Positions 26,397-39,607 of a DNA stretch of 64,000 bases are shown in pieces. Position numbers and translations under genes: made by a program. Location of the stretch: the NCBI RefSeq assembly GCF_004193175.1, contig NZ_SAUH01000001.1, positions 6,038,306 to 6,102,305 on the forward strand. Direction: 5' to 3'. This DNA comes from Streptomyces sp. RFCAC02. Its GTDB lineage: Bacteria > Actinomycetota > Actinomycetes > Streptomycetales > Streptomycetaceae. Position 1 is the first letter of the stretch; every line of letters begins with the position of its first letter. The notes under the pieces were generated by a model. It was not told the origin of the DNA, did no database searches, and saw nothing but the letters and a program-made list of their open reading frames with translations.

Positions 26397-28214
26397 TCAG
26401 CGCCGCCCCGCGGCCCGCGCCACCGACCCGGTCCCGGACACGGCGGGCGGTGGGAACAGGCGGGCCAGGTCCTCGGCGAGGGCGGTCAGCCCCTCGTGGT
26501 CGACAGCCCGTGTCGTCGCGGCCAGTTGCAGCAGGGAGCCGCCCGAGCGGAGCGTGAGGAGTTCGGAGTCGAGCAGCCCGGGCAGGTGGCGGCGCACCGC
26601 GTCGGCGGCGAGCGGGTGACGCAGCAGTTCGGCGAGCGGCGTCCGCAGGTTGACGGTGCCCTCGGGGAAGTCACCGACACGGGGCGTGGGGCGGCTCGCG
26701 GCGTCGGCGCGGGCGCGCTGCGCGGCGACCAGCAGGTGCTCGTCGCCGACCTCGTCCGGCTCCCAGGGGATGCCGAGGCGTTCGAACTGGCTGATGGGCG
26801 CGTCGTTCGCCCGCAGCGCCGTGACCAGCAGGCGGATCATCCGCAGTTCGGTCGCGTCGTCGACGACGGGCCGTTCCTGTGCCGGGTCGGTGGCCAGGTC
26901 GAACAGCAGCGTCCCGAAGTGGGCCGGGCCGAGCAGCGCGGAGGTGCGGGCCGCGACGCGGAGGGTCCGGACTCCCTTCGTGAAGGAGAACGGCTCGGCG
27001 AGCGTGACGTCGGCGAGTTCCTCGGGCGTGAACCGGCCGCGGATGCGCGTCGGCATGAGGGTGTGCTCGTACAGCGGCCGGTTGTCGTCGTCCACGCAGG
27101 CCCGCATGTAGACGTGACGGCCGTCGGTGATGTTGACGTGGCCGCCGAAGATGCCGAACAGCGCGGCCTCCCGCGTCGCCTCGGCCAGGGGCCGGCCCTG
27201 CATGTCGGGCGTCCGTTCGACCCCGAAGAACTCCAGCAGCGTCGGGGCTATGTCGACGGTCTGCACCAGCCCCGCGTGCCGCGTGCCGGCGAGCCGGGGA
27301 CGACGCGGGTCGTGGAGGAACAGCGGCGTGTGGACCAGCTCGTTGTACCAGGGCTGGACCACCTTGGCCCACCAGCCCTTCTCGCCCAGCAGGAACCCGT
27401 GGTCGGTGCAGACGATCAGGAGCGTGTCCTCCCACAGGCCGTACGCGTCCATGGCGTCGAGGACCCGGCCGAGGGAGTGGTCGCACATGGACAGGAGCGC
27501 CGCGTACTCGTACCGCGCGTGCGCGACCTGCTCGTCGGTCTCGGTGACCCGCGTGTAGTCGGGCCAGTCGAAGTGCGGGCCGTCGTAGTCGTGCGGATAC
27601 AGGTCCTTGTACTTCTGATGGGTGAAGAACGGCTCGTGCGGGTCGAACGTCTCGATCTGCACGAACCAGCCGTCATCGGCGTGGTTGTCGCGCAGGAACT
27701 CGAGGCCCGCGTCGAACGTGAGGGTCTGCGGCTGCTTCGCCTCCGTGTCGAGGTACTGCCGGTTGACCCAGTCCTGGCGCCAGGTCTCCCCGCGGGACGA
27801 GTGCAGGTCCGCGGGGACCGCGGGATCGGCCACCCGGCCCTTCCACGGGTCGCCCTCCTGCCCGCGGAAGAACTCCCAGCTGCTGTAGCGCGTGTGGTAC
27901 GTGGCGCCGCCGTCTTCGAAGTAGTGCTGGTGATCGCTGACGAGATGCGTGTACACGCCGCTGCGCTTCAGCAGTTCGGGCATCGAGTCGTCGAACGGTT
28001 CCAGGGGTCCCCAGCCGCGGTGCAGGAAGTTGTGGCGGCCGGTGTGCAGTTCGCGGCGCGCCGGCATGCACGGCATCGACCCGGCGTAGCAGTTGTCGAA
28101 CGTGACGGTCCGTGCCGCGAGACGCGCGAAGTTGAGCGCGTGGGTCCACTCGGCGCCGTAGGGCGGCAGCAGATGCCGGTTGAGGCTGTCGAACATGACC
28201 ATGATGGCCTTCAC
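26397..28214 (-). CDS. type I sulfatase, cytoplasmic
   Basis: 605 residues of the alkaline-phosphatase/sulfatase superfamily. The formylglycine site is SMPCMPARRELHTGR (CxPxR then TGR); other metal or active-site blocks are AIMVMFDSLNRHLLPPYGAEW, LIVCTDHGFLLGEKGWW, and TFDPHEPFF. There is no signal peptide, so it works inside the cell. GTG 28214 is preceded by GAAGGAG; it overlaps the expected stop of the formylglycine-generating enzyme gene as GTGA. The Cys form of the site requires activation by that enzyme. Last gene of a six-gene operon with an oligopeptide-type importer. The sulfated substrate is not deducible. Confidence 0.93.
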   Translation of the reverse strand: MKAIMVMFDSLNRHLLPPYGAEWTHALNFARLAARTVTFDNCYAGSMPCMPARRELHTGRHNFLHRGWGPLEPFDDSMPELLKRSGVYTHLVSDHQHYFEDGGATYHTRYSSWEFFRGQEGDPWKGRVADPAVPADLHSSRGETWRQDWVNRQYLDTEAKQPQTLTFDAGLEFLRDNHADDGWFVQIETFDPHEPFFTHQKYKDLYPHDYDGPHFDWPDYTRVTETDEQVAHARYEYAALLSMCDHSLGRVLDAMDAYGLWEDTLLIVCTDHGFLLGEKGWWAKVVQPWYNELVHTPLFLHDPRRPRLAGTRHAGLVQTVDIAPTLLEFFGVERTPDMQGRPLAEATREAALFGIFGGHVNITDGRHVYMRACVDDDNRPLYEHTLMPTRIRGRFTPEELADVTLAEPFSFTKGVRTLRVAARTSALLGPAHFGTLLFDLATDPAQERPVVDDATELRMIRLLVTALRANDAPISQFERLGIPWEPDEVGDEHLLVAAQRARADAASRPTPRVGDFPEGTVNLRTPLAELLRHPLAADAVRRHLPGLLDSELLTLRSGGSLLQLAATTRAVDHEGLTALAEDLARLFPPPAVSGTGSVARAAGRR

Positions 28215-29157
28215 GATGCGGCTCCTTCGGGGGCGCGGGGGTGACGGGGTCGGCGGCGCAGCGGAAACCGCCGTGGCCGGTGGAGGAGTCGGGGGTGTTG
28301 TGGGACCGCGCGGCGACGCGGTAGCGGTTGCAGTACGACGCGTGGCACAGGTACGAGCCGCCGCGGATGACGCGTTCACCCGGTCCCCAGGCGTCGGCGC
28401 ACCACTCCCACACGTTCCCCGACGTGTTGAACAGCCCGAAGGCGTTCGCCCCGTACGCGGTGACGGGCACCGTGCCGGGCCGTCCGCCCGGCCGGGTCGG
28501 GCGGTAGCGGTGCGGGAAGTCGCCCCGCCAGATGTTGCACTTCTCCTCACCGCCCGGGTCGAGCTCGTCGCCCCACGGGTACCGCAGGCCCTCGGCGCCG
28601 CCGCGCGCCGCGTACTCCCACTCCGCCTCCGTGGGGAGGCGGGCGCAGGCCCACGCGCAGTAGGCGAGGGCGTCGGCGTGGGAGACGTGGACGACGGGAT
28701 GGTCGGCGCGGTCGTCGATCCCCGAGCCGGGACCCTCGGGGGCGCGCCATGTCGCGCCCTCGACGGCGAGCCACCACGGCGCCCCGGGGACGCGGCCGAG
28801 CACATGGCGGTCGCCGCCGGGGGCGAGCAGGAGGTGGAAGACGTACGAACTGCCGTACCGCTCGGCGTCCGTCACATATCCGGTGGCCCCGGCGAACGCG
28901 GCGAAGGCGGCGTTCGTCACGGCGGTCGTGTCGATGCGGAACGGGTCCACCCGCACCGCGCGCACCGGCCCCTCGCGGTCGGCGTGGTAGCCCTCGCCGA
29001 ACGCGTCACCCATGAGGAACGTGCCGCCGGGCAGCGCCACCTGGTCCCCGCGCGGCGGCACCGCGCCACGCGGCGGGGGAGGCGCGAGCGCGAGCAGCTC
29101 CGTGTCGTCCCGGCCGTGTCCGTGTCCGTCGCGGGCTGGACCGCAGCAGGCGCTCAC
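28211..29157 (-). CDS. formylglycine-generating enzyme (SUMF1 family), frame broken at the 3' end
   Basis: About 315 residues, the family's usual length. Oxidises the sulfatase CxPxR cysteine to formylglycine using copper and O2. Signature blocks: PGGTFLMGDAFGEGYHAD, HPVVHVSHADALAYCAWA, RLPTEAEWEYAARGG, FNTSGNVWEWCADAW, and GGSYLCHASYCNRYRVAARS, which holds the two catalytic cysteines; then NTPDSSTGHGGFRCAAD. GTG 29157 overlaps the ATPase stop. As given, the frame has no stop and runs on to 27673; one additional base in the G runs at 28229-28249 would end it at TGA 28211-28213, overlapping the sulfatase start. All catalytic residues lie before the break. Confidence 0.9.
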
Positions 29158-31094
29158 GGGGCCACGGCCTCGGACTCGGCGCCGCGCGCGGCGGCGGGGG
29201 ACGTGCGGCGGGCCGCCTCGACGGCGGGGTCGGGCACGGGCGCGGCGGCCAGCAGTTCGCGCGTGTAGGGGTGGCGGGGCCGCTCGCAGACCTCGTCGGC
29301 CGGTCCGGTCTCGACGATGCGTCCCTGCCGCATCACGGCGATGCGGTGGCTGATCCGGCGGACCACCGCCAGGTCGTGCGCGATGAAGACCATGGCCAGG
29401 CCGAGCCTGCCCTGCAGGTCGGTGAGGAGGTTGACGATCTGCGCCTGCACGGACACGTCGAGGGCGGAGACCGGCTCGTCGCAGATCAGGACGGACGGTT
29501 CGGGCGCGAGGGCACGGGCGATCCCGATGCGCTGGCGCTGTCCGCCGGAGAAGTCGCGCGGGTGCCGGTCCGCGGCGTCCGGGGCGAGCCCCACGGCCGT
29601 CAGCAGCCCGGCGACGCGTTCGGCCCGCTCGGCCCGGTCGCCGATGCCGTGCGCGACGAGCGGCTCGGCGACGATCGCGCCGACGGTCAGGCGCGGGTTG
29701 AGGGAGGCGTAGGGGTCCTGGAACACCATCTGGACCTCCCGCCGCAGCTCCTTGAGCTGCCGCCCGGTGACGGAGGTGACGTCACGGCCGCGCAGCAGCA
29801 CACGGCCGCCGGTGGCGGGGTGGATCCGTACGAGGGTGCGGGCCAGGGTGGATTTGCCCGAGCCTGACTCGCCGACGATGCCCAGCGTCTCCCCGGCGGC
29901 CAGTGTCAGGTCGACACCGTCCAGCGCCGTGAACGGCGTGCGCCGCAGGGCACGCGTCCCGCGCCCGGGGAACGTCTTGCGCAGCCCCGAGACCACGAGC
30001 AGCGGCCCGGACCGGTCCGCCGGACTCTCCGCGCCGGTCCGGGCGGTGACGGTGGGCACCTCCTCCGGACGCGCGGGCGCCGGGATGTGCGGCGCGCGCA
30101 GGAGCCTGCCGGGCGGGAGCGGCGAGCCGTCGCCCGCCACCCAGCACGCGGTGCGCCCGTCGCCCGTGGGACGCAGCGGCGGCGCGGCCTCCCGGCACCG
30201 CTCCTCGGCGAGGGGGCAGCGCGGGGCGAAGGCGCAGCCCGCGGGCGGGTCGGCCGGGTCGGGCGGGGTGCCCGGAATGCTGTGCAGGCGGGTTCCGGAC
30301 GGCGCGTCCAGCCTGGGCACGGCGGCGAGGAGACCGGCGGTGTAGGGGTGGCGCGGGTGGGTGAGGACCTGCTCGGTCGGGCCGTCCTCGACGATCGTGC
30401 CGCCGTACATGACCACGACGCGGCGGCAGGTCCGTGCGACGACGCCCATGTTGTGCGTGATGACGACGAGGGACGTGCCCGTCTCGCGGTTGAGGCGCTC
30501 CAGCAGGCCGAGGATCTGGTCCTGGACGGTGGCGTCGAGCGCGGTGGTCGGCTCGTCGGCGAACAGCACGTCGGGCTCGTTGGCCAGCGCCAGGGCGATC
30601 ACGATCCGCTGCCGCTGCCCGCCGGAGAACTGGTGGGGATGGTCGTCCAGGCGCCGCGCGGGTTCGGGGATGCCGACGAGGCCGAGGAGTTCCTCGGCGC
30701 GGCGGGCCCGCGCGGCGCGGTCGCCGCCGCCGTGCGCGCGCAGGGCCTCGTCCAGGTGGCGGCGGACGGTCAGCACCGGGTTGAGCGCGGTCATCGGGTC
30801 CTGGAAGACCATGGCGACGCGGGCGCCCCGCACGGCGCGCAGCTCGTCCTCGCCAGCGGCCGTGAGGTCCGTCCCGCCCAGCCGTACGGCCCCGCCGGTG
30901 ATACGGCCCGAGCCGGGCAGCATCCGCATGACCGCGAGGGCGGTCGTGGACTTCCCCGAACCGGACTCGCCGACGATGCCGAGCGTCTCGCCGGGCCGCA
31001 CCGTGAGGCTGACGCCGCCCACGGCGCGCACGGGACGGCCGCCGGGGCCGGCGAACTCGACGCGCAGGTCGGTGACGTCGAGGGACGCGGTCAT
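29154..31094 (-). CDS. fused double ATPase of oligopeptide-type ABC importer (DppD-DppF-like)
   Basis: 646 residues with two complete nucleotide-binding domains. First: Walker A GIVGESGSGKSTTALAV, signature FSGGQRQRIVIALAL, Walker B VLFADEPTTALD, followed by the oligopeptide-type C-terminal cysteine tail CAFAPRCPLAEERC. Second: GIVGESGSGKSTLARTL, DFSGGQRQRIGIARAL, VLICDEPVSALD. The fusion supplies both ATPases of the importer in one chain and energises the permeases encoded upstream. Start overlaps the permease stop, and the end overlaps the formylglycine enzyme start, both by four bases. Confidence 0.95.
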   Translation of the reverse strand: MTASLDVTDLRVEFAGPGGRPVRAVGGVSLTVRPGETLGIVGESGSGKSTTALAVMRMLPGSGRITGGAVRLGGTDLTAAGEDELRAVRGARVAMVFQDPMTALNPVLTVRRHLDEALRAHGGGDRAARARRAEELLGLVGIPEPARRLDDHPHQFSGGQRQRIVIALALANEPDVLFADEPTTALDATVQDQILGLLERLNRETGTSLVVITHNMGVVARTCRRVVVMYGGTIVEDGPTEQVLTHPRHPYTAGLLAAVPRLDAPSGTRLHSIPGTPPDPADPPAGCAFAPRCPLAEERCREAAPPLRPTGDGRTACWVAGDGSPLPPGRLLRAPHIPAPARPEEVPTVTARTGAESPADRSGPLLVVSGLRKTFPGRGTRALRRTPFTALDGVDLTLAAGETLGIVGESGSGKSTLARTLVRIHPATGGRVLLRGRDVTSVTGRQLKELRREVQMVFQDPYASLNPRLTVGAIVAEPLVAHGIGDRAERAERVAGLLTAVGLAPDAADRHPRDFSGGQRQRIGIARALAPEPSVLICDEPVSALDVSVQAQIVNLLTDLQGRLGLAMVFIAHDLAVVRRISHRIAVMRQGRIVETGPADEVCERPRHPYTRELLAAAPVPDPAVEAARRTSPAAARGAESEAVAP

Positions 31095-31951
31095 CGGCGG
31101 ACTCCCTTGTTCAGGGCCTCGGCGATCAGCGTGAAGCCGAGCACGAGGGCGGTCACCGCGACCAGGGGCGGCACGGCGATGTGGGGGTGGGTCGAGAGGT
31201 AGGGCATGGCCTGGCTGAGAACGCTGCCGAGGGTCGGGTCCGGTGGCTTCACCCCGATGCCGAGGAAGCTCATGGCTCCCTCGATGAACACGGCGGCCGG
31301 CAGGGAGACGGCGAGCTGGACGACGACGGGGTCGACGGCGTTCGGCAGGACATGCCGCAGCAGGACCCGCACGGGCCCCGCCCCGCCGGCCCGCGCGGCG
31401 ACGGCGTACTCGCGCTCCCGCTGGAGGAGGACGGAGCCGCGCAGGACGCGGCCGAAGCCCGGTGCCTCCGCGAGGGCGATGACGAGGATGACGGGCCAGT
31501 AGCCGGGACCGAGGACGGCGGTGATGGCGAGCCCGAGGATCAGCCCGGGGAACGCCAGCACGAGGTCGAACAGGCGCTGCACCACCACGTCGGCGGGGCG
31601 CCAGGCCGTGGCGGCCAGCGCGAGGACGCTGCCGCCGACGGCGGCGACGGGCACCCCCACCAGGATGATGCCGAGGTCCGTGCGGATGCCGTACAGCACC
31701 CGGCTGAGCAGGTCGCGGCCCACCTCGTCGGTGCCGAGGAGGTGGGCCGCTCCCGGGCCGGTGAGCGCGTCGGCGCTCTGTTCGGTGGGCGCCGGGCCGG
31801 CGATCACCGGGGCGAGGAGCCCTGCGGCGGCGACCAGGCCGACGAGGACGAGTCCGGCGATCCCGCGGGGCGTGCGGAGACCGGCGATGTAGGGGTTGCG
31901 GACGCGCCGACGGGCGGGCGCGGGGATGTCGGGGGCGAGCAGTGCGGTCAT
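31091..31951 (-). CDS. oligopeptide-type ABC importer permease (DppC-like)
   Basis: 286 residues. N-terminal helix GIAGLVLVGLVAAAGLLAPVI and the DppC hallmark HLLGTDEVGRDLLSRVLYGIRTDL; inner-membrane loop EYAVAARAGGAGPVRVLLRHVLPN interacts with the ATPase. ATG 31951 is chosen because GGTGGGAG sits eight bases upstream; a GTG nine bases earlier (31960) would overlap the upstream stop. Its 3' end overlaps the ATPase gene. Confidence 0.93.
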   Translation of the reverse strand: MTALLAPDIPAPARRRVRNPYIAGLRTPRGIAGLVLVGLVAAAGLLAPVIAGPAPTEQSADALTGPGAAHLLGTDEVGRDLLSRVLYGIRTDLGIILVGVPVAAVGGSVLALAATAWRPADVVVQRLFDLVLAFPGLILGLAITAVLGPGYWPVILVIALAEAPGFGRVLRGSVLLQREREYAVAARAGGAGPVRVLLRHVLPNAVDPVVVQLAVSLPAAVFIEGAMSFLGIGVKPPDPTLGSVLSQAMPYLSTHPHIAVPPLVAVTALVLGFTLIAEALNKGVRR

Positions 31952-31956
31952 CGTGG

Positions 31957-32901
31957 TCACTCCCACCTGATCCGGGGGTCGAGCCAGGCGTAGGCGATGT
32001 CGGTGAGGAGCTGGACGGCGACGAAGATCGCCACCAGCAGGAGCAGGAGTGCCTGGACGACGGGGTAGTCCCGCACGACGACGCCCTGCTGGGCGAGCTG
32101 GCCGAGGCCCGGCCAGGCGAACACGGCCTCGACCAGGATCGCGCCGCCGAGGAGGTGCCCGATCTGCATGCCGAGCACGGTGACGGCGTTCGGCAGGGCG
32201 TTCGGCAGCGCGTGCCGCCACAGGATGCGGCGGCGCGGGACGCCCAGCGCGACGGCGGTGCGCACGTAGTCCTCGGCGAGGGCGCGCTCCAGCCCGTCCT
32301 TCAGATAGCGGGCGAGGACGGCGGCGCTCGGCAGAGCCAGGCACAGGGACGGCAGCAGGAGGAACTGCACCCCGAGGTCCGGGGCCTCCAGGACGGAGAG
32401 GCGGCCCCCGGAGGGCAGCCACCGCAGCGTCACGGCGAACACGAGGACCAGCAGCACGCCCGTGACGAACGGCGGCACGGCCAGGGCGCCGGTGGTCAGA
32501 GCGCGGACGGCGGCGCGGACCGGACGGCGGCGGGCGGTGGCACCTGCCACACCGAGGACGAGCCCGAGCCCGACCACGAGGAGCAGCGCCCCGAGGGCGA
32601 GTTCGATGGTGGCGCCGAAGCCGTTGCCGATGAGTTCGGCGACGTCGCCGCCGATGGCGTAGGAGGGGCCGAGGTCGCCGCGCAGCAGGTCGCCGAGCCA
32701 GGACGCGTACTGCGTGGCCAGCGGCTCGCCGAGGCCGAGGCGGTCACGGATCGCGGCGACCGTCTCGGGCCCCGCGTCGGGTCCCGCCAGCGCGGTGGCC
32801 GCGTCGCCCGGTATCAGGCGCAGGATGAGGAAGACGGCGAAGGAGGCGAGCAGCAGGGTGAGGAGGGCGGTGGGGACACGTTTGATGAGATAACCGGTCA
32901 T
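31957..32901 (-). CDS. oligopeptide-type ABC importer permease (DppB-like)
   Basis: 314 residues, six membrane segments. DppB features: N-terminal GYLIKRVPTALLTLLLASFAVF and LRLIPGDAA, LGLGEPLATQYASWLGDLLRGDLG, and the EAA-like loop EDYVRTAVALGVPRRRILWRHALPN. Pairs with the following DppC-like protein. Ten bases separate it from the binding-protein stop. Confidence 0.93.
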   Translation of the reverse strand: MTGYLIKRVPTALLTLLLASFAVFLILRLIPGDAATALAGPDAGPETVAAIRDRLGLGEPLATQYASWLGDLLRGDLGPSYAIGGDVAELIGNGFGATIELALGALLLVVGLGLVLGVAGATARRRPVRAAVRALTTGALAVPPFVTGVLLVLVFAVTLRWLPSGGRLSVLEAPDLGVQFLLLPSLCLALPSAAVLARYLKDGLERALAEDYVRTAVALGVPRRRILWRHALPNALPNAVTVLGMQIGHLLGGAILVEAVFAWPGLGQLAQQGVVVRDYPVVQALLLLLVAIFVAVQLLTDIAYAWLDPRIRWE

Positions 32902-32911
32902 GGCCGTTCCG

Positions 32912-34492
32912 TCATGCCAGATAGGCGTTGTCGAGGGTGAGGTAGCCGAACTTGTTCACGGTCACGTCCCGGACGTCCGCCCGGGCCACCTGGAGCTGCG
33001 CGCGCACGACCAGGTCGATGATGAACGCCTCCTCCAGCAGCGTGTCCGAGATCCGCCGGTAGAGGGCGAGCGCCTCGTCATCACGCGGATCGGTGCGCCG
33101 CCACGCTTCCTGGACGGCCTCCGTGTACGCGTCGGAGCTGAACCGCGAGGTGTTGTGCGCCTCGTTGAAGGGGTAGGCGCTGACGGCGAGCGTGGAGGGG
33201 GTGACCTGCGCGAACCCGTGGTTCATGGTCCACAGGGCAGGCATGTCCTGGGAGATGAGGCGGCGCTGCGCGTTGGCCGGGTCGTAGGGCTGGAGTTCGA
33301 CGTCGATGCCGACCTGCTGGAGGTCGTACTGCACCATTTCCGCGATGACCTGGTCACCGGGCGTCGCGGAGTATCCGAGCGGCACGTGGAGGCCGCGCGC
33401 CCCGGCGGAGCGCAGCAGGTCGCGGGCGCGCTCGGGGTCGTGGCCGTAGTGGGTGCGGCCGGCCTCACTGAAGGCGGGGGAGGAGCGCGGCCACGGCGCG
33501 GAGCTCGCCAGTCCGTAGCCGCCGAGGGCCTGGTCGACGATGCGGTCCCGGTCCACGGCCCAGGCGATGGCCTGGCGGACGGTGCGGTCGTCGGTCGGCG
33601 CGACCGCGACGTTGGCGCCGACGTAGGCCGCTCCCGAGCCGATGTCGTAGCTGGTGACGGTGAACTGCGGATCGCTCGTCAGCGTCCGCACGTCGCGGCC
33701 CGAGAGCCCGAGGGACAGGTGCGACTGCCCCGTCCGCAGCGACGCCATGAGGGAGTCGGCCTGGGCGATGATCCGTATCTCGACACCGTCGAGGTACGGC
33801 CGCCCGCGCAGCCAGTACGCGTCGTTGCGCGCCAGGGTGAGTCCGGAGCCGGGGCGCCGGTCGGTGAGCCGGAACGGCCCGGTGCCGTTCAGGTGTTCTC
33901 CCGTGACGGCCTGCTCGACGGTCTCCCGGTCGGCGATGATCATGAACTCGAAGAGGTCGAACAGGTTGCTCACCGGATGGTCGAGCGTGAGGACCAGCTC
34001 ATGGTCACCGCGCCGGTCGAAGCCGGTGACGGCCTCCGCGGTGGACCGCAACTGGGCGGAACGCTCCGGGTTCTGGAGGTTCTGCACGGCGAAGATCACA
34101 TCATCGGCCGTGAAGGGCCGGCCGTCGTGGTACGTGACGTCCTGGCGCAGCAGCAGCCGTACGGTCCTGCCGTCCTCCGACACCTCCCACGACTCGGCCA
34201 GCTCGGGCTGCGGGACGAGGTCGTCGTCGTAGCGCGTGAGCGTGTTGAAGACCAGACGGTGCAGGAGATTCATCGACGCCTGGGTGAACAGTAGCCCCGG
34301 GGTGAAGTCCACGCCGTGCGCGACGGTGAGGACACCGCCGCGGCGCGGGCCGCCGGCGGCGGACGAACTCTCGTTCATGCGGGCCGCCGACCGGCAGGCG
34401 CCGACCGCGAGCAGCGCGGAGCCGGCGCCCAGGGCGCGCAGCAGCCGGCGCCTGGTCGGCCCGTGGGGGACGGCGGATGTCGAAGGGTGCAT
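32912..34492 (-). CDS. oligopeptide-type solute-binding lipoprotein (family 5)
   Basis: 526 residues. Signal RRRLLRALGAGSALLAVGAC combines a twin-arginine-like stretch with a lipobox (Cys33), so export may be by Tat. Mature protein shows the SBP family 5 pattern: ESWEVSEDGRTVRLLLRQDV, YHDGRPFTADDVIFAVQN, GTGPFRL, and QAIAWAVDRDRIV. Such proteins bind peptides, but also nickel, opines and oligosaccharides; coupling to sulfatase genes suggests a sulfated small molecule here (inference). First gene of the operon; ATG 34492 has only a weak binding site. Confidence 0.92.
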   Translation of the reverse strand: MHPSTSAVPHGPTRRRLLRALGAGSALLAVGACRSAARMNESSSAAGGPRRGGVLTVAHGVDFTPGLLFTQASMNLLHRLVFNTLTRYDDDLVPQPELAESWEVSEDGRTVRLLLRQDVTYHDGRPFTADDVIFAVQNLQNPERSAQLRSTAEAVTGFDRRGDHELVLTLDHPVSNLFDLFEFMIIADRETVEQAVTGEHLNGTGPFRLTDRRPGSGLTLARNDAYWLRGRPYLDGVEIRIIAQADSLMASLRTGQSHLSLGLSGRDVRTLTSDPQFTVTSYDIGSGAAYVGANVAVAPTDDRTVRQAIAWAVDRDRIVDQALGGYGLASSAPWPRSSPAFSEAGRTHYGHDPERARDLLRSAGARGLHVPLGYSATPGDQVIAEMVQYDLQQVGIDVELQPYDPANAQRRLISQDMPALWTMNHGFAQVTPSTLAVSAYPFNEAHNTSRFSSDAYTEAVQEAWRRTDPRDDEALALYRRISDTLLEEAFIIDLVVRAQLQVARADVRDVTVNKFGYLTLDNAYLA

Positions 34493-34847
34493 GGAGGCCT
34501 ACCGGTTGCGAGGGGAGCGGAACCCGCCCGCTCGGCGCGGGGAACGGCAGCCGTTCCTGATTGATTGCTTGCCGAGGGGAAGGAATCCCGCGCGGCGCCG
34601 GGTCGCGGTCAGCGGGCGCGTGGATGCGCGACGGAGCGCCATCCGGCGCGGGCGCGCGGGGGCGACGGCGGGAGATGGAAAAGGCGGGGGAGTGGTGGCG
34701 CGGCGGAGAGCCCGGTCAGCGGAGCAGCGCGCGCACCGGCCCGGCACAGATCGCGCTGGCCTGCCGACGGAGGTCGACATGCCTGCGGGACACGAGGCGC
34801 AGAACCGGATTCACGGGAAGCAGAGTGACAGGACCGATCGCGATCGG
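34493..34847. other. gene-free stretch upstream of the importer-sulfatase operon
   Basis: No convincing gene: short frames here lack family features. It must hold the promoter of the six-gene minus-strand operon, because the ROK gene ends just upstream. No clear -35/-10 pair close to 34492 was found. Confidence 0.5.
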
Positions 34848-34849
34848 TC
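34832..34849. promoter_or_regulatory. 18-base perfect palindrome at the ROK stop
   Basis: GACCGATCGCGATCGGTC, a perfect inverted repeat that overlaps the first bases of the ROK stop codon region, 340 bases upstream of the importer operon. On the minus strand it overlaps a -35-like TTGACC (34846-34851). It could be an operator for the operon or a stem at the end of the ROK transcript; there is no loop, which argues for a protein-binding site. Confidence 0.45.
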
Positions 34850-36056
34850 AACACGCGCCCACCTGACGGAGCGTTAGGTCAGACCGCTCCGCCCCCGCAC
34901 GCAGCGGATCCCGGTACAGCGCCGCCAGCGCCGGCGTACCGCCCGCGACCGGCAGGACGGCCGGCCCGGCGTGCGGCGGCACCAGCCGCGACGGGTCGTC
35001 GCAGATGTGCGAACGGGCCGCCAACTCCTCCGCCATCACCGCGTGGTACTCCGGATTGAGCAGGCTGGAGATCTCCGTGACGATGACCACGTCCGGGTTG
35101 AGCACATCGGTCAGCAGCGCGGCGGCCCGCCCGACCATCCGCGCACGGTCCCGCAGCAGCCGGTCGGCACGTCCGTCCCCCGCGGCCGCCGCGTCCACCA
35201 GCAGCCGCACGTCCGGCTCCGGGACGACACCGTCCCGCACCGCCCGTGCGGCCAGCGCCGTGTCGGAGGCGACCGCGTGCAGACAGCCGGCCCGGCCGCA
35301 GTGACAGCGCTCGCCCCGGACACCGATCGGCAGATGCGCCACGTCCCCGGCGGCGGACCGCGGCCCGTGGTGCACCACACCGGCTATGCCGAACGCCGCG
35401 TCCACCACATTGCCGATGAACAGGTGCGCCACGCTGCGCCGCGCGGCAGGGCGGCCGAAGAGGATCTCCGAAAGGGCGATGGCCCGCGCGTGGTTGTCCA
35501 CATGCACCGGCAGGCCCAGGGCGCGCTCCAACGGTGCCCGCAGCGGAGTCCCGCACATGCCGAGCGCCTCGTGCCGCACCACCGTCCCCGCCCCCGGGTC
35601 CACCCAGCCGCCGACGATCGCCCCGAAACCGAGCACCGGACGTCCCGCCGCGTGCCGTTCCAGGAATCCCGGCAGCACATCGAGGGCCGGCCCGAGCGCC
35701 GCGTCCCCCGAAAGACCGGTGAACACGGTGGTGCCCCGTGCCACCACACCGCCCCGCAGGTCCAGCAGGCAGTACGTCGCCGCGCTGACACCGAGGTGCA
35801 GCCCTCCGACGAGGGGACCGTCCGTGTCGATGTCGACGGGCACCTGCGGACGCCCCACCGCGCCGGCGACCGACAGCTCCGGACGCTCACGGACCAGCCC
35901 CAGCCGCGCGAGCCCCACGAACTGCCGGGACACGGCGGCCGGACTCAGCCCGGACAGGCGGGCGATCGCGCCACGTGCGACCGGCCCGTGGTCGAGGGCC
36001 GCCCGCAGCACGGCGGCGGCATTGGCATCGCGGCGTCCGTCGCCCGGCCGGGACAT
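34848..36056 (-). CDS. ROK family transcriptional regulator
   Basis: 402 residues. N-terminal winged helix (AAAVLRAALDHGPVARGAIARLSG, then LSPAAVSRQFVGLARLGLVRE), then a ROK sugar-kinase-like domain with HVDNHARAIALSE and the zinc motif RGERCHCGRAGCLHAV. ATG 36056 has GAGGAGG nine bases upstream; the in-frame start at 36113 does not. It sits between the importer-sulfatase operon (same strand, downstream) and the divergent dioxygenase-sulfatase unit, so it is the natural regulator of both (inference). A ROK effector would usually be a sugar, which hints at a sulfated carbohydrate. Confidence 0.9.
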   Translation of the reverse strand: MSRPGDGRRDANAAAVLRAALDHGPVARGAIARLSGLSPAAVSRQFVGLARLGLVRERPELSVAGAVGRPQVPVDIDTDGPLVGGLHLGVSAATYCLLDLRGGVVARGTTVFTGLSGDAALGPALDVLPGFLERHAAGRPVLGFGAIVGGWVDPGAGTVVRHEALGMCGTPLRAPLERALGLPVHVDNHARAIALSEILFGRPAARRSVAHLFIGNVVDAAFGIAGVVHHGPRSAAGDVAHLPIGVRGERCHCGRAGCLHAVASDTALAARAVRDGVVPEPDVRLLVDAAAAGDGRADRLLRDRARMVGRAAALLTDVLNPDVVIVTEISSLLNPEYHAVMAEELAARSHICDDPSRLVPPHAGPAVLPVAGGTPALAALYRDPLRAGAERSDLTLRQVGAC

Positions 36057-36162
36057 GGGATGGCCTCCTCGCTGTCGATGTGGCGGTCGATGTACCGGCC
36101 CGTTGCGCCGCATTGCGGTCGGGTGAAATATCCACCGGCGCGACCCTCCAGGACGCAGGCCA

Positions 36163-36188
36163 TCACCTCACGTGATCACCGCAGGTGA
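36163..36188. promoter_or_regulatory. inverted repeats in the divergent gap, candidate ROK operator
   Basis: TCACCT (36163-36168) and AGGTGA (36183-36188) are inverted around a second, perfect palindrome TCACGTGA (36168-36175). They lie in the 343-base gap (36057-36399) between the ROK gene and the dioxygenase gene. Confidence 0.45.
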
Positions 36189-36270
36189 GCCACGCACCTG
36201 CCGGGCGAACCAGTCGCCGTGGCGCCGATTCAACCATCACCGGGCGCCCTCCGCGCCGCCCGGGAGGGGA

Positions 36271-36299
36271 TTGACCGGGACCGCCCGCCGCGCTTTATT
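36271..36299 (+). promoter_or_regulatory. promoter of the dioxygenase-sulfatase unit
   Basis: TTGACC (36271-36276), 17 bases, TTTATT (36294-36299). The AT-rich -10 stands out in very GC-rich surroundings and has optimal spacing. Predicted leader is about 95 bases to ATG 36400. Confidence 0.6.
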
Positions 36300-36399
36300 T
36301 CCGCTGCGAGACGAATCCACCGCCGGCGCGGCCCCCGACGCCCGCGCCACCGCACCCACCGCCGGCCGACCGCCCGGCCCGCCCGAGAGGTTCGCAACC

Positions 36400-37380
36400 A
36401 TGACCACCGCACCCGAGACCACCGCCACCGCGACCGGACACGACGACAGCACCCCGATCACCGTGACCCGCCTCAACGGCCGCATAGGAGCCGTCATCTC
36501 CGGCGCCCGCCTCGGCGGCGACCTGCCGGCCGCGACCGTCGCCGCCGTCCGCGCGGCAGTCCTCGCCCACAAGGTCGTCTTCTTCCGCGACCAGCACCAC
36601 CTCGACGAGGAGAGCCACGAGGCGTTCGGCCGCCTCCTCGGCGCCCCGGTCGCCCACCCCACCGTCCCCTCGGCCGACGGCCGGTACGCCCTGCCGATCG
36701 ACTCCGACTTCGGCGGCCGCGCCAACCAGTGGCACACGGACGTCACCTTCGTCCCCGCCTACCCCGCCTTCTCCATCCTCCGCGCCGTCACCATCCCGCC
36801 CTACGGCGGCAACACCCTGTGGTCCAACACCGCCGCCGCGTACGCCGACCTCGCCGAGCCACTGCGCACCCTCGCGGACAGCCTCCGCGCCGTGCACTCC
36901 AACGCCTACGACTACGTCGCCGCCCACCCCGAGGCCGACGGCGAACAACTCCGCCGCTACCGCGAGATCTTCACCGCGGTCCGCTTCCGCACCGAGCACC
37001 CGGTGGTGCGCGTCCACCCCGAGACCGGCGAACGCGTCCTGCTCCTCGGCAACTTCGTCCAGCACATCACCGGCCTGCCCAGCAAGGACTCCCGCCTCCT
37101 CATCGACCTGTTCCAGGCCCACGTCGAGCGCCCGGAGAACACCGTCCGCTGGCAGTGGCGCGAGGGCGACGTCGCCCTGTGGGACAACCGCGCCACCCAG
37201 CACTACGGCGTCGACGACTCCGACGACCACCGCCGCTCGCTGCGCCGTGTGACCATCGACGGCGACGTGCCCGTCGGCCCCGACGGCCGCCCCAGCGAGC
37301 TGCTGGTCCCCGAGGAAGTCCCCGCCCCCGCCTTCGGCCCGGCCTCCGGGGCCGCCGGGAAGGACACGACCGCACCGTGA
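36400..37380 (+). CDS. TauD/AtsK-type alpha-ketoglutarate-dependent dioxygenase, probable alkylsulfatase
   Basis: 326 residues, Fe(II)/2-oxoglutarate dioxygenase. Iron ligands His-x-Asp in [13 protein letters not shown] and the distal His in [12 protein letters not shown]; the 2-oxoglutarate Arg in [16 protein letters not shown]. The blocks [17 protein letters not shown] and ATQHYGVDD resemble AtsK of Pseudomonas and Rv3406 of Mycobacterium, which release sulfate from alkyl sulfate esters, rather than taurine-specific TauD (family knowledge from memory). ATG 36400 with GAGAGG upstream. Overlaps the sulfatase start by four bases (GTGA), supporting a shared sulfur-scavenging task. Confidence 0.9.
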
Positions 37381-38816
37381 GCACCGAGCCGCACCGGCCA
37401 CCGAACGTCATCGTCGTCCTCACCGACCAGCAGCGCTGGGACACCACCGGCGTGGCGGGCAACCCCGCGGGCGTCACACCCGAGTTCGACCGGATCGCCC
37501 GCACGGGCACCTGGGCAGGGACGGCCGTCACGCCGAACCCGGTGTGCGCCCCCGCACGCGCCGCGCTCCAGACCGGCCGGTTCCCCACCGCGGCCGGCGT
37601 CCACCGCAACGGACTGCCCCTCCCGCAGGACGTACCGACCCTGGCCGGCGCCTTCGCCGCCGCCGGCTGGACGACGGGCTACCTCGGCAAGTGGCACCTC
37701 GCGGGAGCGCCGGCCGGCGCAGGACCCGTCCCGCCCGACCGGCGCGCCGGGTACCGCCACTGGCTCGCCGCCGAACTGCTGGAGTTCACCTCCGACGCCT
37801 ACCGGACGGTGCTGTACGACGAGGACCAGCGGCCGGTGCGGCTCCCCGGATACCGCTCCGACGCCCTGGTCGACGCCGCGATCCGCTTCGTGGCCGACCA
37901 CCACGACCAGCCGTTCCTCCTGTTCCTGTCCCTGCTCGAACCCCACCACCAGAACGCCACCGACGACTACCCCGCCCCCCACGGATACCGCGAGCGCTAC
38001 GAGGGAACCTGGCTGCCGCCGGACCTCGCGGCCCTCGGCCCCGGCGCGCCGGGCGGCGGCGCCCACCGTCACATCGGCGGCTACCTCGGCCAGCTCAAAC
38101 GCGTCGACGAGGGCGTGGGCCGGCTCCGCGACGCGCTGCACAGCCTCGGCATCGAGGACCGCACCATCCTCGCCTGGACCGCCGACCACGGCTCCCACTT
38201 CCGCACCCGCAACGACGAGTACAAACGCTCGGCGCACGACGCGTCGGTCCGCGTCCCGCTCGCACTGACCGGCCCCGGCTTCACCGGCGGCGGCCTGATC
38301 CGCCGGCCCGTCAGCACCGTCGACCTCGTGCCGACCCTGCTGGAGGCGGCCGGGCTGCCGGTGCCCGCCGGCGTGCAGGGACGCTCGTTCCTGCCGCTGG
38401 TGGGCGGAGGTGCCGACCCCGGGCGGCCGGACGGCGTCCTCGTCCAGATCAGCGAATCGCACGTCGGCCGCGCCCTGCGCACCGGCCGCTGGAAGTACGC
38501 CGTGGCCGCCCCGGACGCGGACGCCTGGAACGACCCGGCCGCCGACCGGTACGTGGAGACCGAGCTGTACGACCTGGCAGCCGACCCCTACGAGCTGGAC
38601 AACCTGGCGGGCCTCACCTCCCACCGATCCGTGGCCGACGGCCTGCGCGCCCAGTTGCTCGCCTGGCTCGAACGCGCGGGGGAGCGGCCCCCCGAGATCC
38701 TGCCGGCCCCGCCACGGACCCTGCCGCAGCGGCGCCCCGACCCCGAGGCGCGCGACCTGCCCTGGGACGGACTCCCGTTCGGCCACCGGCGCGGCGACGG
38801 GGGGAACCCGCCCTGA
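37377..38816 (+). CDS. type I sulfatase, cytoplasmic (second)
   Basis: 479 residues. Starts [20 protein letters not shown] with the metal Asp, then the formylglycine site [16 protein letters not shown] (CxPxR and TGR), [21 protein letters not shown] and [18 protein letters not shown], all classical choline/aryl-sulfatase blocks. No signal peptide. GTG 37377 overlaps the dioxygenase stop. It needs the formylglycine-generating enzyme encoded 9 kb away on the other strand. The C-terminal 40 residues are Pro/Arg-rich. Substrate not deducible. Confidence 0.93.
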
Positions 38817-38844: not shown

Positions 38845-39489
38845 TCAGGCCACCGCCCCCTCCGGACGGGAGGGCGGTGCCAGGGCCAGCAGCTCACCGA
38901 GACGGGCGCACAGATCCGTCCCGGCCGCGGCGTGCACGGTCGTGATGCCCAGCGCCGCGGCGGGCGGCAGATTGACCTCCTGGTCGTCCACGAACACGCA
39001 CTGATCACCCCGCAGACCCATCCGCTCCAGCGTGCGCCGGTAGATCTCCGGATCGGGCTTGGCGAGCCCCTCCCGTTCGGAGATCACGGCCACGTCGAAC
39101 AGGTCCCACACCCCGAGGTGCCCGTACGGGTCGTAGGGCTCGACGCCGAAGGAGTTGGACAGCATCGCCACCCGCATCCCGGCCTCCCGGGCGGCGACGG
39201 CCAGCGCCACCACGTCCTCCGCCCGCCGGATACCGGCCCAGGCCCGCCCCATGAGGTTCTCCGACCGGTCCACCCCCAGCGCCCGCGCGGTGGTCGCGTT
39301 CCACTCCTCCTGCGACAGACGCCCGGCCTCCAGCGCCAGATACAGCTCCCGCCCCGCCGGGTCACGCTCCAGCGCGTGGCTCCACGCGTCGGCGGCCAGC
39401 CCCTCGCGCAGACACCAACCGCGGACCGACTCCCCGATCCCCGTCGCCAGCACACCCGCGAAATCGAGAATGAGCCCCCTGTAGCGCAC
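38845..39489 (-). CDS. HAD superfamily hydrolase
   Basis: 214 residues, HAD subfamily IA. Motif I is LILDFAGVLATG, in which the usual second Asp of DxD is Ala; the nucleophile Asp is kept. Motif II AMLSNSFG, motif III Lys in LAKPDPEIYRRTL, motif IV VFVDDQEVNLPPA. The changed motif I is typical of DFGGVL-type members and argues against a simple phosphatase, since the second Asp is the acid/base there. GTG 39489 has GGGGAAC upstream. Convergent with the sulfatase; 118 bases after the TetR gene. Confidence 0.85.
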   Translation of the reverse strand: MRYRGLILDFAGVLATGIGESVRGWCLREGLAADAWSHALERDPAGRELYLALEAGRLSQEEWNATTARALGVDRSENLMGRAWAGIRRAEDVVALAVAAREAGMRVAMLSNSFGVEPYDPYGHLGVWDLFDVAVISEREGLAKPDPEIYRRTLERMGLRGDQCVFVDDQEVNLPPAAALGITTVHAAAGTDLCARLGELLALAPPSRPEGAVA

Positions 39490-39607
39490 GCCGTTCCCCT
39501 TCCCGCCGACCCACGTACGGTCCTCAGAATCGCCACCGCACGGCAACCGGGCAAGGGCGCACGGACGCTTCGCCCCGAACGGCCTCAGCGGGAGACGGCG
39601 GGCACGC

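Follow-up and report, generated by a model that had tools for sequence, protein, structure and literature searches.

We analyzed a 64,000-nt stretch of Streptomyces sp. RFCAC02 (the window), which belongs to a 6.1 Mb genome and extends to the end of its main contig. Open reading frames (ORFs) and a Pfam search of the window proteins located nine genes at 26397-38816, each of which reached the cut-off of its own main Pfam family (Table 1); the first-pass annotation had described them as eight import and desulfation genes plus a ROK regulator, and this description held. The minus-strand operon runs from a substrate-binding lipoprotein (SBP) through a DppB-like permease, a DppC-like permease, a fused ATPase and a formylglycine-generating enzyme (FGE) to sulfatase A, with gaps of 10 and 5 nt followed by overlaps of 4 and 4 nt. 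On the plus strand, the genes for an AtsK-type dioxygenase and sulfatase B overlap by 4 nt, and the ROK gene lies between the divergent operons on the minus strand. The same gene order is repeated in relatives, so the arrangement is not due to chance. Judging from the features described below, the locus probably serves to scavenge sulfur from organic sulfate esters, using an ATP-binding cassette (ABC) importer of the peptide type (PepT) under the putative control of a cysteine-linked leader peptide.

Table 1. Genes and sequence elements of the locus, with positions in the window
Feature	Position	Strand	Evidence or remark
Sulfatase A, formylglycine (FGly) type I sulfatase (CMPAR)	26397..28214	-	PF00884, 102 bits; GTG start at 28214
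FGE, catalytic domain	28222..29157	-	PF03781, 251 bits; frame stays open to 27673
Fused DppD-DppF type ATPase	29154..31094	-	Two ABC_tran and two oligo_HPY stretches
Permease, DppC/NikC type	31091..31951	-	PF00528, 82 bits
Permease, DppB/NikB type	31957..32901	-	PF00528, 127 bits; PF19300
SBP, SBP_bac_5 family	32912..34492	-	PF00496, 259 bits; lipobox by eye
Leader peptide, 32 codons, contains RRHVDLRRQASAIC	34716..34814	-	NCBIfam NF042934, 35.0 bits; GTG start
Element TGTCATATTGCTCCC (relatives' consensus), directly 5' of leader GTG	34815..34832	-	22-locus alignment
ROK-family transcriptional regulator	34848..36056	-	PF00480, 100 bits; start possibly at 36113
Operator-like inverted repeat TTCCGCT-GCG-AGACGAA, 5' of AtsK	36299..36315	+	12 of 14 consensus arm positions
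AtsK-type Fe(II)/2-oxoglutarate alkyl sulfate dioxygenase	36400..37380	+	Matches to AtsK (1oih) and Rv3406 (4ffa)
Sulfatase B, FGly type I sulfatase (CAPAR)	37377..38816	+	PF00884, 155 bits

The SBP, permeases and ATPase all belong to the PepT (Opp/Dpp/Nik) superfamily: the SBP is an SBP_bac_5 protein, the two permeases contain BPD_transp_1 domains and the ATPases carry oligo_HPY tails. A Tat-like RR...LLAVGAC lipobox was recognized by eye at the N-terminus of the SBP. In DppA, Asp408 binds the peptide amine. The DppA loop WTGDNGDPDNFF aligned with WTMNHGFAQVTP in the window SBP (TGDNGDPDN versus TMNHGFAQV, or WTGDNGDPDN versus WTMNHGFAQV with the preceding tryptophan), so that a W-xxx-H loop occupies the place of the aspartate loop. 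The loop histidine was retained in the SBP relatives displayed, and the DppA aspartate pattern was found in none of the 39 relatives and the window protein displayed. The SBP scored 92 bits with the DppA equivalog model, far below its cut-off of 1005, and thus is not a dipeptide-binding protein by this measure. Together with its linkage to AtsK, the W-xxx-H loop sets this importer apart from the known Opp/Dpp/Nik systems. Importers of the Ssu/Tau/Ats class define the AtsRBC type of sulfate ester importer, and the ats clusters of Pseudomonas contain this other class. The window importer is not of the AtsRBC type, as its SBP and permeases fall into the SBP_bac_5/Opp class.

The dioxygenase matched the structures of AtsK (1oih, E 9e-106) and Rv3406 (4ffa, E 1e-102) better than that of E. 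coli-type TauD (1gqw, E 5e-49). The structures 3swt, 3r1j and 4j5i, deposited under taurine-type names, also matched at 1e-94 or better. With the taurine dioxygenase equivalog model it reached 220 bits against a cut-off of 313, and it is nearer to AtsK and Rv3406 than to taurine dioxygenase. The HxD...H iron site, the distal arginine (LRRVT) and the 2-oxoglutarate residues are retained, the motif of AtsK-type enzymes being defined as in PMC3675115. By sequence, the window enzyme is of the AtsK kind and is predicted to cleave alkyl sulfates in a 2-oxoglutarate-dependent manner. The studied AtsK relatives use medium-chain alkyl sulfates, and Rv3406 is needed by Mycobacterium tuberculosis for growth on 2-ethylhexyl sulfate as the sole sulfur source and is inactive on taurine (PMC3675115). 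AtsK of Pseudomonas putida and Rv3406 thus belong to the same dioxygenase family as the window enzyme, with a published role in sulfur scavenging from alkyl sulfates (PMC3675115), whereas here AtsK is accompanied by a ROK regulator, together with a PepT-type importer and FGly sulfatases.

Both sulfatases retain the CxPxR motif, as CMPAR in sulfatase A and CAPAR in sulfatase B, and by eye both enter the fold directly without a signal peptide. In sulfatase A, C48, P50, R52, H192, D270, H271 and K283 (numbered without the start residue) were invariant in 28 aligned sequences, as is characteristic of an FGly type I sulfatase; in sulfatase B, CAPAR and ADHG were seen by eye. The nearest solved structures of sulfatase A were choline sulfatases. 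Its residues 3-332 could be aligned with choline sulfatase, with the counterparts of Cys54, His201, Asp296, His297 and Lys309 kept and Ser/Thr in the place of Gln15 (for the roles of these active-site residues, see PMC5870055). The two sulfatases scored 111.5 and 133.8 bits with the choline sulfatase model TIGR03417, far under its cut-off of 433.45. A gene for a HAD-family hydrolase (38845-39546, minus strand) lies convergent with that of sulfatase B.

The best PDB match of the FGE was the FGE chain 6muj (E 1.9e-103), which we take to be the enzyme of S. coelicolor; LCHxSYCNRYR was retained, and GGSYLCHASYCNRYR paired with the same residues of 6muj. The paired cysteines of FGE have a functional role. 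No stop closes the FGE frame ahead of sulfatase A, and the resulting 494-codon ORF overlaps sulfatase A out of frame. The window differs in this from six relatives of sulfatase A, in which the FGE gene ends in a stop codon that overlaps the GTG start of the sulfatase (11 of the 15 stretches compared gave a result, the others being L038, L099, L181 and L186). A sequencing error may account for the open frame, as may a genuine frame change past the catalytic domain; the two look alike here. Two further FGE-domain genes are present elsewhere in the genome, and several core loci (defined below) have a sulfatase with no FGE nearby; the locus is therefore only partly self-contained, as it had at first been called.

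A 32-codon ORF encoding VNPVLRLVSRRHVDLRRQASAICAGPVRALLR between the ROK and SBP genes had been overlooked in the first-pass annotation. It matched the NCBIfam family NF042934, "putative leader peptide", with 35.0 bits (33.8 bits in the genome scan) against a cut-off of 27, and 21 of the 25 core loci have a leader at the same position, NPDMRLISRRHVDLCRQASAVCAVR being a frequent form of it. A genome-wide search with NF042934 gave nine places, six of them over the cut-off, and the same search in 14 well-known genomes, used as a control, gave nothing over the cut-off. In the window's genome, leaders over the cut-off also preceded a ThiS-family gene followed by cysteine synthase (PF02597, TIGR01136), a cysteine dioxygenase gene (PF05995) and, divergent from the latter, the gene of an OmpR-type regulator (PF00486), a sulfite/nitrite reductase gene followed by cysH, cysC, cysD and a CysN-like GTPase gene, and a rhodanese gene. 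The ninth place (13.9 bits, within a long frame) resembled noise. A family that stands in front of genes for sulfate assimilation, cysteine synthase, cysteine dioxygenase and rhodanese is an indication of sulfur instead of sugar carbon.

The last Cys codon of the leader (34746-34748, minus strand, in the window; also seen in L213-L218) is TGT in all 22 aligned leaders of the locus and in all eight leaders counted in the genome (seven besides that of the window), whereas the nine genes of the locus contain 28 TGC and three TGT codons. The variable leader codons showed four synonymous and nine residue-changing differences in frame, compared with 4/11 and 0/15 in the other frames, and this frame conservation gives weak support to translation of the leader. 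In the relatives, a CATATT within TGTCATATTGCTCCC-GTG ends 6 nt upstream of the GTG and might represent the -10 box of a leaderless transcript, although a sigma-70 promoter scan found no promoter at the leader, which counts against such a box. The leader-like motifs RLHIDLGRLASAAC and RRHLDLGRLSSAAC were also seen in L188 (~6.8 kb) and L193 (~6.3 kb) between ROK and AtsK on the minus strand, which is the AtsK strand. Cys-rich upstream ORFs have been proposed as attenuators in mycobacteria, one of them before cysA2 (PMC4633059). The leader of the window resembles them in being a short ORF with Cys codons that opens a sulfur-linked transcript, but NF042934 leaders here mostly have one or two Cys and no Cys run.

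The inverted repeat TTCCGCT-NNN-AGCGGAA, a consensus built from the SBP-side sites themselves, was the best match 45-115 nt upstream of the SBP gene in 20 of the 24 core loci with a readable SBP upstream region. On the AtsK side, at least 11 of the 14 arm positions were matched in 12 of 25 upstream regions and at least 10 in 20 of 25, compared with 1.8% and 14.6% of shuffled sequences, respectively (the shuffles were a simple first-order resampling; the 25 regions are those of 24 core loci and of L060, with L035 missing). In two of the 12 (L183 and L188), the repeat was positioned further upstream. Only 0.13% of shuffled upstream regions reached the 12 positions of the AtsK-side repeat in the window. 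A repeat with at least 11 of the 14 positions was found in none of ten AtsK loci without the importer and in none of seven loci outside the genus. These data fit a single regulator, presumably ROK, acting on both operons.

We examined conservation in a sample of 295 genomes of the genus, that of the window included. The SBP was found in 28 of them at E 1e-80, of which 25 showed at least 58% identity and define the core loci; sulfatase A was found in 28 (one a fragment), sulfatase B in 21 and AtsK in 59. All 25 SBP genomes were among the 59 with AtsK (hypergeometric 2.4e-20, not corrected for relatedness). Every core locus contains the SBP and both permeases, 24 contain the ATPase (L177 ends before it), and 24 have ROK and AtsK at the same locus as the SBP and permeases. 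In the remaining one, L035, the contig begins immediately before the SBP; AtsK is found with sulfatase B on another contig. In contrast to this constant set, FGE was found in 14 core loci and sulfatase A in seven, although two of the 18 loci lacking the latter are cut off by contig ends. Sulfatase B was found in 13, namely ten core loci together with L037 (whole), L178 (cut by a contig end) and L035 (on the other contig), while L034 retains a short remnant only. A third sulfatase, "C" (~770 residues, PF00884), was present in 15 of the 25 and as a fragment in one more.

The conserved unit is thus AtsK, ROK and the importer, found in 25 of 295 genomes of the genus, and sulfatase A is an optional passenger. 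The variable presence of the sulfatases beside a constant AtsK and importer indicates that the sulfatases are exchangeable. The co-occurrence of the eight genes in other genomes, which the first-pass annotation had suggested as a check, held for AtsK and the importer, together with ROK, and failed for sulfatase A. A fixed eight-gene unit was rejected on this count and on the finding that relatives of sulfatase A lie beside MFS, sugar-type ABC and other importers.

For these counts, G105, G186 and G267, with SBP hits of 41-43% identity (loci L194, L195 and L197), were excluded from the 25. L061 is the same record as L037 and was dropped, except as the source of the sulfatase B of L037, and L060 (S. 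seoulensis A01), from outside the 295 genomes, was used in the 22-leader alignment but not counted among the 25. The stretches of L035, L177, L178, L232 and L249 were shorter than asked, and in the first three absence can be judged only up to the contig ends. L196 matched in pieces, as did single genes of L182 and L192. Ten of the 34 genomes with AtsK but without the importer were fetched (L240-L249), and they reveal a second AtsK context in Streptomyces: in five of the ten, AtsK has a related ROK gene in its vicinity, encoded on the opposite strand. No match to a peptide-type binding protein or permease was found in L240-L249. An AtsRBC-like importer had been expected there, and this idea was dropped, as the ABC gene in L240, the only annotated one of these loci, adjoins genes for an FtsX-type permease and a histidine kinase.

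Among 345 genomes sampled across the class, an SBP match was found in 12; ten of these lie outside the genus, with identities of 35-43%. AtsK adjoins the importer in seven of the ten loci outside the genus (L230-L236), several of which also contain ROK, FGE or a relative of sulfatase C. A Streptomyces plasmid carries consecutive genes for SBP (44% identity), two permeases, ATPase, sulfatase, ROK and FGE, and the part of it that was viewed has no annotated AtsK. On a plasmid of Neorhizobium petrolearium, an importer annotated as peptide/nickel type is followed by a 57% homologue of sulfatase A and another sulfatase, and in the Neorhizobium locus L099 the genes for an oligo_HPY ATPase, FGE and a sulfatase A homologue are consecutive. 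These cases show that peptide-type importers are repeatedly paired with sulfatases.

The core of sulfatase A (~480 residues) has relatives with 59-69% identity in Chloroflexota, rhizobia, Armatimonadetes, Planctomycetota and Lokiarchaeota contigs. Gene clusters represented by an MFS transporter, a PadR regulator, an FGE and a GH3 enzyme recur around the actinobacterial relatives and, over all phyla, were counted in 24, 20, 19 and 18 of 80 loci, respectively; these counts are rough, as the hand-made gene caller misassigned strands in several loci and Pfam was mostly run on one representative per cluster. In three Streptomyces loci (L062-L064), a relative with 71-72% identity lies with GH38, GH2, an SBP_bac_1-type ABC importer and ROK, possibly forming a pathway for sulfated mannosides. 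Homologues with 58-60% identity also occur in L128, L133 and L136, on contigs binned as Lokiarchaeia/Lokiarchaeota. The neighbors of sulfatase A in Caldilineaceae gave no clue to the substrate, and the rough gene caller yielded almost nothing on the Lokiarchaeota contigs.

A similar arrangement has been reported in Rhodococcus qingshengii IGTS8, in which the sulfatase AtsA1 and a TauD-family dioxygenase were detected only in dibenzothiophene culture, as opposed to sulfate, and the level of a ROK regulator encoded divergently rose 18- to 33-fold on dibenzothiophene (PMC8557817). The three genes, peg5938-5940, bear the same annotations as here, with ROK divergent beside the sulfatase-TauD pair. 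The available part of PMC8557817 mentions no peptide-type importer or leader beside the sulfatase-TauD operon.

The anatomy of the genome supports well the prediction that a substrate is imported and then desulfated inside the cell, as had been proposed at the outset: the set is conserved, the SBP resembles a lipoprotein and the sulfatases appear by eye to lack signal peptides. Sulfur scavenging is its most likely purpose. From the gene identities and order, the leader family and its sites in the genome, the operator-like repeats and the missing DppA aspartate loop, we infer the transport substrate, induction, attenuation and sulfate as the product, in the following scheme. When cysteine is short, ribosomes would slow or stall at the leader Cys codon or codons, and the importer operon would be released, while ROK, through the related operators, would switch both divergent operons in response to a specific substrate or metabolite. 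The lipoprotein would capture sulfate esters on the outside of the membrane for inward transport by the PepT-type ABC importer. Inside the cell, alkyl sulfates would be oxidised by the AtsK dioxygenase and other sulfate esters hydrolysed by the FGly sulfatases, activated by the FGE of the locus, with the freed sulfate entering the cys pathway. The exchangeable sulfatases would set the substrate range.

Several observations weigh against this scheme. The leader was absent by pattern from four of the 25 core loci (L190-L193) and from the ten loci outside the genus, and it has one Cys codon instead of two in the window and L177. The stretch between leader and SBP was poorly conserved in the 22-locus alignment, a scan found no terminator there, and no attenuation mechanism is visible. 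The OmpR-type regulator behind one leader is not a sulfur enzyme, and of the leader sites below the cut-off two stand in front of genes for a GST-domain protein and a DctA-like symporter, which have no clear role in sulfur metabolism. The SBP side, where the operator consensus originated, provides no test of it; its repeat was not the best match in the window, L185, L187 and L192, and the site of the window itself is weak. None of the sulfatases looked for was found in L191-L193. No AtsK was found within the 20 kb fetched around the SBP of L194, L195 and L197 in the genus (a sulfatase B relative is present in L197) or beside the importer of L237-L239 outside it. The match to IGTS8 was made by annotation and arrangement. 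Finally, actinobacterial relatives of sulfatase A adjoin GH38/GH2 or GH3 genes, which fits sugar catabolism. These glycosidase neighbors suggest that the substrate of sulfatase A may be a sulfated sugar or glycoside, and the locus may serve beyond alkyl sulfates.

The last point bears on carbon catabolism, in which ROK would sense a sugar, the importer would bring in a sulfated oligosaccharide or glycoside, and its sugar, freed by the sulfatases, would serve as a carbon source. The membership of the regulator in the ROK family is consistent with this explanation, as are the sulfatase A relatives found with GH38, GH2, an SBP_bac_1-type importer and ROK in L062-L064 or near GH3, and a further relative inside an annotated sugar ABC operon with FGE in Rhizobium leguminosarum WSM2304. 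We nevertheless consider it unlikely, since no glycosidase or sugar-catabolic gene was recognized in the shared part of the 25 loci, the leader belongs to a cys-linked family, and the constant enzyme is an AtsK-type dioxygenase, medium-chain alkyl sulfates being the substrates of the AtsK relatives studied (PMC3675115). The ROK regulator is accordingly a weak hint of the carbohydrate inducer suggested at first: the leader family and the Rhodococcus proteome (PMC8557817) suggest sulfur scavenging instead, in spite of the glycosidases beside sulfatase A relatives.

The PepT family of the importer would agree with uptake of sulfated peptides or tyrosine-O-sulfate by a true peptide importer, followed by desulfation. 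However, peptide import is disfavored by a binding-protein loop that lacks the DppA aspartate pattern in all the proteins displayed, and no peptidase was recognized in the shared part of the loci, making this very unlikely. It is highly improbable that the locus detoxifies alkyl sulfate surfactants or desulfates natural products, with sulfur supply secondary; AtsK relatives do act on alkyl sulfates (PMC3675115), but a dedicated importer would presumably increase exposure, and the leader family is tied to cys genes. Choline-O-sulfate uptake for betaine synthesis, brought to mind by the choline sulfatases among the structures nearest to sulfatase A, is extremely improbable. This route was rejected on the scores of both sulfatases with the choline sulfatase model, and no bet genes were among the genes identified in the locus.

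Organic compounds hold more than 95% of the sulfur in soil, and sulfate esters and sulfonates are major forms of it (PMC4267179). A literature search, in which most subscription journals were outside coverage, found no paper on an actinobacterial sulfate-ester importer; for Gordonia, an alkyl sulfatase is mentioned in the available part of PMC7661421, with no locus that matches. The enzymes themselves belong to known types, and their pairing with a PepT-type importer and a cysteine-linked leader, which we did not find described, is probably new. The suggestion that the route was undescribed therefore holds for the importer pairing within the literature searched, whereas the general idea of scavenging by AtsK relatives has been published (PMC3675115).

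We put forward more tentatively, as a conjecture that could well prove wrong, that actinobacteria possess an as yet undescribed PepT branch dedicated to sulfate esters, with a W-xxx-H loop, locked to AtsK, mostly accompanied by ROK and served by swappable FGly sulfatases, in which the Streptomyces leader would read cysteine through one slow, rare TGT codon. The locus provides a candidate importer family with named partner enzymes and a testable regulatory switch, in culturable bacteria. Importers annotated as "peptide" or "nickel" type beside AtsK or sulfatases may be misnamed, and the combination of leader, importer and AtsK would serve as a genome marker for sulfur scavenging.

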